Shown piece by piece: positions 49,125-51,989 of a DNA stretch of 64,000 nucleotides. Below the pieces are notes generated by a model, which searched no databases, was not told where the DNA came from, and was given only the letters and a program-made list of their open reading frames with translations. The stretch's first letter is position 1; every line of letters begins with the position of its first letter. Origin of the DNA: Bacteroidota bacterium (GTDB lineage: Bacteria > Bacteroidota > Bacteroidia > Sphingobacteriales > Sphingobacteriaceae); NCBI GenBank assembly GCA_013286325.1, contig JABDFZ010000002.1:1-64000 (forward strand), written 5' to 3'. The translations under genes were made by a program, and so were the position numbers.

Positions 49125-49841
49125 ATGGTTTCACTTAGTGAATTAGTTTTGAAAGTTAATTTTAAGAACAACTATCCGGCCTTCAATTTAAACAACGTTG
49201 ACCCGGATAATATTGACAATGTGCTGGGTAAGATCCAAAGATCATTTGATATCAAGTTTGAGGAAGAAGACCTGCACAACGTTAAAACATTTGGTAACTT
49301 ATGCGACGCCGTTGTTAAAAAAGTAAAGCTCAAAAACTCCGATGGCTGCACAACACAGCACGCTTTTTACAAGCTAAGGAATGCTATAAACACAACCATA
49401 GCTGCCGATAAAGAGCTGATAAAACCGCAAACCAAACTTTCAGATATTTTCCCCAGAGATACCCGTTTGCAGGTAATTGCCGAAATTGAAAAAGAAATGG
49501 GCTTTAAAATGAACCTGCTGAAACCAAAGGGCTCTATAGTTTTCCTGTTTTCATTAATATTAGCCTCCTCAGTAATTGGCCTATTCTTTTTCCCTGCAAT
49601 AAGCGGCTTTGGAGCAGTTATTGCCATTACCGGATTAATTTTGGCAGGTAAATTTGGTAAAGAAATGCAGGTTAAAACCCTGGGCGATCTTGCCGAAAAA
49701 ATCGCCCGTGAACATTATCTCAACTGCCGCCGCAATGCATCAACAGTTAACCGCACCGAAATTGCCGAAAAAATAAAAGAACTTTTCACACACGAACTAT
49801 ATCTCGAACCATCAGTAGTAAGGCGCAACAGCAAGTTTTAA
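49125..49841 (+). CDS. ACP-like membrane protein (degenerate)
   Basis: ACP-like NVDPDNIDNVLGKIQRSFDIKFEEEDLHNVKTFGNLCDAVVKKV; two TM segments; KTLGDLAEKIA. Confidence 0.6.
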   Translation: MVSLSELVLKVNFKNNYPAFNLNNVDPDNIDNVLGKIQRSFDIKFEEEDLHNVKTFGNLCDAVVKKVKLKNSDGCTTQHAFYKLRNAINTTIAADKELIKPQTKLSDIFPRDTRLQVIAEIEKEMGFKMNLLKPKGSIVFLFSLILASSVIGLFFFPAISGFGAVIAITGLILAGKFGKEMQVKTLGDLAEKIAREHYLNCRRNASTVNRTEIAEKIKELFTHELYLEPSVVRRNSKF

Positions 49842-49965
49842 AGAATAAAACATCAGCTCATAATTGATGTATCTGATTAACTCCTTTGTTGCAAAATAAT
49901 GCCTAGGCCTTGCCTCAGTAAAGAGAAGCGAAAAAGTTTTAGGGAACAAACATCTTCTTCGGTAC

Positions 49966-50036
49966 TGACCCATCGGGTCTGCCCCTTTGTAGTCAAAACC
50001 ATACCCCCTGATCTTTGCCTCGTAGAGGCTACCCTT
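49966..50036 (+). repeat. REP-like unit 1
   Basis: TGACCCATCGGGTC...CCCCTTTGTAG...TGATCTTTGCCTCGTAGAGGCTACCCTT. Confidence 0.85.
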
Positions 50037-50503
50037 CACCCGTCTAATAAGTCTTGAAAAATATATTTTTCATCGTATTCAACAGCATAATCTCTTAACA
50101 TTTCAAGATATTCTTCTCTGAATGTCTTTTTTGCATGATGTTCTTTTTGATTTAAAATATATTTAACCACACCGTCAATATGTGATCGGCTGTTACTAAA
50201 TGCGCCATAGCCATCCTGCCAATGAAATTTCCTTTGTGTAAAGCCTTCCTTATTTATAAATTCTGAACTATCGCCTTTTACCAGCTTCATTAATTCTGAA
50301 ATAGACTGTTTGGGATTAAGCCCGACAAGCATGTGTAAATGGTCGGGCATCGTATTTATTGTTATTAATTTGTGGCCGTTATTTTGCACAATCCCGGTCA
50401 TGTATTTTTGAAGACGATCTTCCCATTCCTCCAATATTGCGGCTTTTCTATATTTTACAGCAAATACAAAATGAATATATAATTGTGTGTAAGTGTTTGA
50501 CAT
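50036..50503 (-). mobile_element. IS200-like / REP-associated tyrosine transposase (Y1, TnpA)
   Basis: INTMPDHLHMLVGLNPKQSISELMKLVKGDSSEFIN...FHWQDGYGAFSNSRSHIDGVVKYILNQKEHHAKKTFREEY. Confidence 0.92.
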
Positions 50504-50541
50504 AATGATCTCTATACCTACAAAATTAATAAAAGCGGATC

Positions 50542-50610
50542 AAGGGTAGCCCTTACAGGGCAAAAATCTCTTTTGCCGTTTTTCTACAAAGGGGTTGACC
50601 CTATGGGTCA
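50542..50610 (-). repeat. REP-like unit 2 (inverted)
   Basis: Reverse complement reads TGACCCATAGGGTCAACCCCTTTGTAGAAAAA...GCCCTGTAAGGGCTACCCTTG. Confidence 0.85.
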
Positions 50611-50618
50611 TGCCTTAT

Positions 50619-50743
50619 GTTTCTGAATTATAGGATTATCTCTTTTTTATAGACCCTAAGAAATATGACCCGATGGGCGATGCATAAAATTTCCGAATTA
50701 ATAGGATTATTTCTCTTTTATAGACCCCAAGAATCATGACCCA
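50619..50743 (+). repeat. Two direct copies of a ~50-bp sequence ending at the REP hairpin
   Basis: tttctgaattataggattatctctttttt-atagaccctaagaaatatgaccc and tttccgaattaataggattatttctcttttatagaccccaagaatcatgaccc. Confidence 0.8.
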
Positions 50744-50807
50744 TAGGGTCAACCCCTTTGTAGAAAAAATCGTGCTCCTGATCTTTGCCTCGTAGAGGCT
50801 ACCCTTT
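50737..50807 (+). repeat. REP-like unit 3
   Basis: TGACCCATAGGGTCAACCCCTTTGTAG...TGATCTTTGCCTCGTAGAGGCTACCCTT. Confidence 0.85.
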
Positions 50808-50933: not shown

Positions 50934-51491
50934 ATGAATGATGATCGCACCAGAATAATCCACAGAAGGACACCAGAATCAGCGGCTATGGTAGCAAACG
51001 TCAAACGAGCGATGTCAATCACTGCCGCACTTAACCGCTTGACGTTCGACGATGCAGACGGGATCCGTGCCTTGTTTAGCGAGCTCATCGGTAAAAAAGT
51101 AGACGAGAGCTTTTCACAGATTCCACCATTCTACACTGCGGGCGGGAACGAAATCCGGATAGGGCATAATGTCTTCATAAATCAGAACTGTACTTTCTAC
51201 GACCTTGGTGGCCTCGACATCGCAGACGACGTAATGATCGGGCCGAATGTAAACATCATCACCACGGGGCATCCCCTTGATCCTGCACAGCGTCGCACCA
51301 CTACAATCGGAAAACCCATCGTGATTGAAAGAAACGTCTGGATCGCAGCTGGCGCAACCATCATAGGCGGGGTAACAGTAGGCGAAAATTCAGTTGTGGC
51401 TGCAGGTTCTGTGGTCACCAGGGATGTTCCACCAAATACCCTTGTCGGAGGAAACCCTGCACAGATTATTCGTTCAATTGGGGATGATTGA
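50934..51491 (+). CDS. Sugar O-acetyltransferase (maltose/galactoside acetyltransferase-like LbH)
   Basis: VFINQNCTFYDLGGLDIADDVMIGPNVNIITTGHPLDP...GVTVGENSVVAAGSVVTRDVPPNTLVGGNPAQIIR. Confidence 0.93.
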   Translation: MNDDRTRIIHRRTPESAAMVANVKRAMSITAALNRLTFDDADGIRALFSELIGKKVDESFSQIPPFYTAGGNEIRIGHNVFINQNCTFYDLGGLDIADDVMIGPNVNIITTGHPLDPAQRRTTTIGKPIVIERNVWIAAGATIIGGVTVGENSVVAAGSVVTRDVPPNTLVGGNPAQIIRSIGDD

Positions 51492-51524: not shown

Positions 51525-51989
51525 TTACCTGTCCACCATCAATCCCCTCACCTCAAAAGTCAATCTTTTTGAAGGATTGGTTTTAACACTGTGCTGCTTT
51601 TTCCCCCGAACCGTATCCCCGGCAAAATGCTGCAGATCGTCGGCAATAAATTGCTTTGCAGCAACGCCCTCAGCAATCACATATTTACCCCTTAATGCTT
51701 CCGGTATATTTATTGCATAGTTTTTAAAATGCGCGGCTATTGTTTTTCCATTACCCGCATCTAACTCAAACCAGCCGCCTTTCTGTTTAATTACTTTCAC
51801 CACCCTGCCTTTTATGGTTGTGCTGATGCGCGTTTTTTTACCCATAAAGGCTTCAACTTTTTCTGCATTAAGTATCTCAGCAGTATCAGGTTTTGCGCCA
51901 AAAACAGTACCATGCGGCAGGGGAACATGTTTTTGCGTAAAAGCAGCTGTAGAAAAAAACAAAGCGAAAATAAAGAGTATTGCTTTCAT
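51525..51989 (-). CDS. DUF4920-like secreted protein
   Basis: Signal peptide; KKTRISTTIKGRVVKVIKQKGGWFELDAGNGKTIAAHFKNYAINIPEALRGKYVIAEGVA. Confidence 0.75.
   Translation of the reverse strand: MKAILFIFALFFSTAAFTQKHVPLPHGTVFGAKPDTAEILNAEKVEAFMGKKTRISTTIKGRVVKVIKQKGGWFELDAGNGKTIAAHFKNYAINIPEALRGKYVIAEGVAAKQFIADDLQHFAGDTVRGKKQHSVKTNPSKRLTFEVRGLMVDR

Follow-up and report, generated by a model that had tools for sequence, protein, structure and literature searches.

A subclass 1.2 Y1 transposase gene between inverted two-hairpin units, and dispersed copies of the unit in Bacteroidota genomes

In a 64,000-nucleotide stretch (hereafter the window) of a genome assembly from a Mucilaginibacter-like soil member of the Bacteroidota, a single gene for an IS200-like Y1 transposase lies between two inverted repeat units, each made of two hairpins. 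The locus is probably a REPtron-like element, in which a single subclass 1.2 Y1 transposase is enclosed by inverted two-hairpin ends and its lineage maintains and spreads the same unit in intergenic regions. Partnerships between REPs and transposases are already known; the apparent novelty is that subclass 1.2 has a cognate repeat, dispersed and built of tandem hairpins. A full-text search of the open-access literature found no mention of REPs in this subclass, and a report beyond that search may exist. A sequence-only reading of the locus had proposed a Bacteroidota REP-RAYT pair. The pairing itself stood, since a Y1 transposase and dispersed intergenic repeats, often in inverted pairs, are associated across genomes, but the enzyme is not a RAYT.

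The module, its units and its site

The features of the locus are as follows.

49966-50611: discrete element of ~645 bp, consisting of a two-hairpin unit, the TnpA gene and an inverted two-hairpin unit (borders from blastn)
49964-50036, forward strand: unit 1 (covariance model R1, 72.4 bits)
50036-50503, reverse strand: TnpA, 155 aa, IS200-like HUH-Y1 transposase (Pfam Y1_Tnp, NCBIfam IS200, conserved residues, AlphaFold model)
50542-50612, reverse strand: unit 2, inverted (covariance model R1, 79.7 bits)
50630-50671 and 50701-50742, forward strand: two 42-nt direct repeats, 88% identical, bridging units 2 and 3 (sequence comparison)
50667-50681, forward strand: degenerate A-like hairpin TGACCC-GAT-GGGCGA between units 2 and 3 (sequence; pattern match with 2 mismatches)
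50735-50806, forward strand: unit 3, beyond the 645-bp element and head to head with unit 2 (covariance model R1, 83.4 bits)

The sequence-only reading had placed three two-hairpin units here, and both the sequence and the covariance model (72-83 bits) bear this out. Each unit is ~72 bp long and contains hairpin A, a short linker whose last two nucleotides are termed NN, TTTGTAG, a spacer of ~22 nt, hairpin B and CTACCCTT, in this order. NN is CC in the window units, and the linker of unit 1 is CCCC. Hairpin A of these units reads TGACCC-ATN-GGGTC(A). For hairpin B, units 1 and 3 share GCCTC-GTA-GAGGC, and unit 2 has GCCCT-GTA-AGGGC. Because two adjacent pairs of this stem differ on both sides, the compensatory change that had been claimed is a true one. 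GTAG stands at hairpin B in all three units, and GCAG or GTTG is found instead at hairpin A. Units 2 and 3 are perfectly complementary over 34-nt arms (50579-50612 and 50735-50768). In folding as single-stranded DNA, units 1 and 3 form both hairpins with z of about -2.5. Unit 2 reaches a z of -4.0 against shuffles, and in its minimum-energy structure a rival 7-bp hairpin replaces hairpin B. Units 1 and 2 bracket the TnpA gene closely: unit 1 shares the last base of the stop codon, and unit 2 sits 38 nt upstream of the start codon. The overlap with the stop codon, the degenerate hairpin at 50667-50681 and the homology borders described below are additions to the earlier reading.

The borders were defined by blastn. 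The whole of 49966-50610/50611 aligns with loci in other genomes (L200, 79%; L189, 78%; L188, 77%; L195, 77%), and the homology to L200, L189/L116, L188 and L195 ends at the outer hairpins, with unrelated flanks. Again, L191 and L192, from two related genomes, are 92% alike across the module stretch and have unrelated flanks. Since homology ceases at the outer hairpins and the flanks are unrelated, 49966-50611 is a discrete module with inverted two-hairpin ends, and these alignments suggest that it is mobile. The gene to the left, orthologous to 49125-49841, is present in 19 relatives, most of which also have a DUF4920 gene nearby, to the right. The DUF4920 gene (51525-51989 in the window) is only about 80-210 bp from the left-hand gene in L265-L268 and L282. 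At the same spot the window has about 1.7 kb more, which includes the module, unit 3 and a gene for a hexapeptide acyltransferase. Judged by gene order, the window locus is an insertion relative to this synteny, and its empty site can be placed at most approximately, the nearest relatives being ~79% identical. The acyltransferase gene (50934-51491) belongs to the same ~1.7-kb insertion, and none of the relatives compared was seen to have it here.

The transposase

TnpA scores 107 bits with Pfam Y1_Tnp. Its signature is D54-H-L-H57, W95-Q and Y115---Q119--H122-H123 (DHLH, WQ, YILNQKEHH), and the catalytic residues H55, H57, Y115 and Q119 are invariant across 38 homologues. The protein had been described as IS200/RAYT-like, and the first half of this label is the one that holds. 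With the NCBIfam IS200 model TnpA scores 89 bits, above the cut-off of 55, but with the REP-associated model (REP_Tyr_transpos) it reaches 37 bits, below the cut-off of 80. The tyrosine motif of class 2, Y---NP, is not present in the window TnpA or its homologues, which have Y---Q--HH instead. The solved structures closest by sequence are the TnpAs of ISDra2 and IS608 and other IS200 transposases, and the fold of the AlphaFold model (pLDDT 83) matches ISDra2/IS608 TnpA best. TnpAREP (4er8) ranks 30 by fold and gave no match by sequence search. Identity as a RAYT (class 2 TnpAREP) was thus ruled out by the Y---Q--HH motif, the NCBIfam scores and the solved relatives. No TnpB ORF is present at the locus, in agreement with the earlier description of a lone transposase.

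Subclass 1.2 of Y1 transposases has been defined by Y---Q--HH, DH[IV]H, WQ and a length of about 148 aa (Quentin et al., 2018; PMC6006769). By its motifs DHLH, WQ and YILNQKEHH and its 155 aa, the window TnpA fits this IS200-like subclass, with one departure from the published table, L in DHLH versus the printed DH[IV]H. The group studied here shares with subclass 1.2 the motifs Y---Q--HH, DH[IVL]H and WQ, a length of about 150 aa, occurrence in Bacteroidota and low copy number. Cyanobacteria are another phylum in which subclass 1.2 is present. The difference is in the repeats: Table 1 of PMC6006769 records no REPs for subclass 1.2, whereas cognate repeats with 5-bp stems are seen here, shorter than the stems of at least 7 that the automatic REP search of that study demanded. 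A missing REP is a claim of absence, so the units extend membership in subclass 1.2 and do not exclude it. A group of transposases that was credited in 2018 with neither IS nor REP features thereby gains a role and a candidate substrate.

The TnpA paralogues sampled within a genome are diverged. Those of genome G121 share 79% and 83% identity with the window protein, within-genome paralogues are divided between NN groups on the TnpA tree, and several near-identical copies per genome were not seen among the sampled paralogues. Plasmid-borne homologues are all below 60% identity. The host also has a second Y1 transposase (L005; contig C53, 1408-1851, minus strand, 147 aa) with a Q--HH motif, beside which TTTGTAG units are absent.

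The repeat family in related genomes

The earlier reading named absence of the repeat elsewhere in the host genome as evidence against itself, and the incomplete host assembly (218 contigs, 61% complete) comes close to such absence. Strict and loose DNA patterns gave no match there beyond the window locus, and the covariance model found one further copy, which is degenerate (C65:1810-1880, 52.6 bits). Either the gaps in the assembly or a genuinely low copy number may account for this. Despite the near-empty host assembly, the idea that repeat and transposase belong together is rescued by the repeats in relatives. The covariance model, whose construction had been suggested, recovers the three window units and also dispersed units in relatives, and the stems covary. 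In 150 genomes, 906 copies of the motif CWACCNNTTTGTAGNA were counted (at most 61 per genome), versus 168 of the reversed control. Its median count in these 150 genomes is 17 with a subfamily-1 TnpA and 1 without (p=6e-11), and the reversed motif is flat. As had been proposed, relatives were searched for the transposase together with the repeats. Among 61 same-genus genomes, which include named Mucilaginibacter, the covariance model (its E-values being rough) found units in 34 of the 35 with a close TnpA homologue (E <= 1e-45; median 22) versus 8 of the 22 in which no homologue was detected (median 0; Fisher p=5e-7). Units lie beside most of the close homologues. There are exceptions in both directions: G074 has TnpA and no units by the covariance model, and G045, G054 and G144 have 11-18 units and no detected TnpA homologue, so that their units are either orphan repeats or partners of missed enzymes.

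The stems themselves are conserved as pairs. In alignment A1, 98% of positions are paired and 70 double-change cells occur in both hairpins (0/500 shuffles), and pairing drops to 30-54% in slid versions of the alignment. The units of A1 had been chosen for good, indeed perfect, stems, so covariation was examined again on motif-selected sites. Of 146 sites, selected mainly through the linker motif and with some loci fetched by the covariance model, 86 have a stem A of 5 perfect pairs closing a 3-nt loop, versus 19.7 with reshuffled arms, in 13 distinct stem sequences. Since part of these loci were fetched by the model, a strictly motif-selected set with one site per genome was also examined, and stem A is perfect in 13 of 30. 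The loops are conserved (GTA, ATA, ATC), the stems vary and the spacer is mostly 20-26 nt.

Intergenic, covarying hairpins of this kind could also be host RNA elements, such as terminators or structures at mRNA 3' ends, unconnected to the transposase. Indeed, only 1 of the 118 units in fetched loci lies in an ORF of at least 120 codons, whereas 67% of positions drawn at random from these loci do. This explanation is nevertheless very improbable, because the presence of units tracks TnpA, 14 of the 22 same-genus genomes without a detected TnpA having no units, because terminators do not typically occur as inverted dimers or tandem arrays, and because no Rfam family was matched at its cut-off in a search of the units. 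Weak Rfam matches (MIR821 etc.) were far below the cut-offs and were rejected as reflections of palindromic DNA.

The copy numbers bear on a second possibility, that the element is an ordinary IS200-group insertion sequence, with palindromes in its ends by chance, and that the other repeats are its decayed ends. An IS200-like protein and sharp element ends would be expected of it. However, in five TnpA carriers (G010, G027, G062, G121, G138) the covariance model found 43-94 units, greatly exceeding the 3-7 TnpA homologues per genome; three genomes without TnpA have zero. Precise gene-less inverted dimers of about 150 bp, with TTCGCGAA often at the centre, are also common in many copies. Furthermore, the ends are inverted, in contrast to the same-strand left and right hairpins of IS200/IS605, and the subclass to which the protein belongs, 1.2, has been described as low in copy number and unlike an IS (PMC6006769). 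A plain insertion sequence is therefore unlikely.

Roughly a third of the dimers are found within shells with outer terminal inverted repeats of three kinds, listed here.

L132, L143, L144, L156, L160, L175: shell kind 1, TTAACGTGAGTTCGATATAAG, with A/T-rich direct target repeats of 8-10 bp
L155, L161, L163: shell kind 2, CAGGGAAATCGCTTTTAA, outer inverted repeats
L147, L150: shell kind 3, TGACGGATAGT, outer inverted repeats

These terminal repeats are unrelated, and the shells resemble MITEs; some of the dimers may thus owe their spread to other transposases. It could then be supposed that the units are in general passengers, palindromic cargo or terminators, in MITEs moved by unrelated DDE transposases, and that TnpA was inserted alongside; the direct target repeats of one shell kind would suit this. 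Most dimers lack a shell, unit copy number depends on the presence of TnpA, and the geometry of the units around TnpA is conserved across Bacteroidota, all of which make the passenger explanation quite unlikely. Spread of the unit by the lineage of this transposase remains the preferred reading.

The same layout of hairpin, linker, TTTGTAG, spacer and hairpin is also found beside homologous TnpAs of other, distant Bacteroidota lineages. The foot of hairpin A differs among them (CTACC, TTAAAGC, CTATC, CGACC and others); a GTAG foot as a universal tag was dropped for this reason. GTAG-hairpins are about 10-fold denser within 300 bp of TnpA genes (2.0/kb) than at 400-1400 bp (0.21/kb). NN is identical on the two sides of the TnpA gene in 22 of 30 cases versus 6.4 expected, a count in which the window, actually CC/CC, enters as a mismatch through a chance TTAAT match. 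On the TnpA tree, where the corrected window row (CC) was used, NN changes 17 times versus 35.8 when shuffled. As the units flank the gene, this pattern may come from plain co-inheritance rather than co-evolved specificity. Away from the gene the agreement is partial: NN is GC in all 15 copies listed for G010, but in G014 mostly TA, plus TG, CA and AA.

Possible mechanism and relation to known systems

In IS608 and ISDra2, TnpA binds subterminal hairpins in single-stranded DNA, and the cleavage site is chosen via a guide 5' of the hairpin; TnpAREP acts with GTAG 5' of the hairpin and cuts at CT or CA (PMC8266576). By analogy with these systems, the TnpA described here would bind one folded single strand through the loop T and the stem, and the tetranucleotide at the hairpin foot would act as the guide. 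The invariant CTAC, complement of the GTAG in TTTGTAG, is a candidate cleavage and joining site, its position and strand being predicted. On the strand that reads 5'-GTAG-hairpin B-spacer-CTAC-AAA-NN-foot-hairpin A, CTAC follows hairpin B and precedes hairpin A, the same placement between hairpins as in the right-end/left-end junction of IS200. In L037, tandem arrays keep the CTAC register at a repeat length of about 49 bp. Cutting and joining at CTAC by TnpA could copy or move single hairpin units and inverted dimers. The dispersed non-coding repeats would then be the same unit, single or as gene-less inverted pairs, spread by this transposase lineage, and the gene-less dimers would be its miniature, non-autonomous form. 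Because the ends are inverted, no strand combines a left end with a right end on the two sides of the gene, which would keep the gene from classical IS200 excision and points to REPtron behaviour.

REP-RAYT systems or REPtrons with class 2 TnpAREP (E. coli, Stenotrophomonas, Marinomonas) share with this element a single low-copy Y1 gene between inverted hairpin repeats, dispersed intergenic repeats and inverted dimers; Marinomonas REPs also have 5-bp stems (PMC8266576). GTAG beside short perfect hairpins is a partial likeness, seen at hairpin B of the window units. In contrast, the transposase here is of class 1 (subclass 1.2), the unit consists of two tandem hairpins, and the inter-hairpin CTACAAA/TTTGTAG tag is the most constant part while the GTAG foot varies by clade. 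The IS200/IS605 elements IS608 and ISDra2 have the closest solved transposases, hairpin ends and an expected cleavage site 5' of the left-end hairpin, but here the ends are inverted, gene-less dimers are abundant and TnpB is absent. Pseudomonas REPINs (PMC3116915) are likewise inverted repeat pairs that serve as miniature mobile units needing a resident transposase; the pairs here differ in having two tandem hairpins per half and often TTCGCGAA at the centre. Non-canonical REPs ('atypical structures') are known from TnpAY1 class 3 and subclass 2.6, the latter also in Bacteroidota, and both differ in protein motifs (Y----Q in class 3, YIH[QN]NP in 2.6). The comparison points to an origin of transposase-repeat partnerships in each of two branches of the Y1 family, the IS200-like and the TnpAREP.

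A broader view can be offered tentatively, as an idea with somewhat less than even chances. Subclass 1.2 and its tandem two-hairpin units might form a separate, phylum-wide REP system, in which CTACAAA/TTTGTAG is a universal cut and join site, foot and NN serve as a recognition code particular to each lineage, and four-hairpin miniatures that spread themselves arise from inverted ends. The many natural variants of stem, foot and NN, with matched proteins, make rules of recognition testable, and the units are an unannotated part of many Bacteroidota genomes.

Repeat regions beside TnpA also vary by tandem duplication. In two close Mucilaginibacter species, duplications of about 180 and 470-600 bp are seen, and the species-pair comparisons are listed below with two tandem arrays near TnpA.

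L201, 1940-2360, versus L202: tandem-duplication difference
L233, 1940-2660, versus L239: tandem-duplication difference
L037, 628-1186: array of about 11 repeats of a ~49-bp one-hairpin monomer
G015, contig C26, ~417.2-417.9 kb: array of three copies of a 259-bp unit
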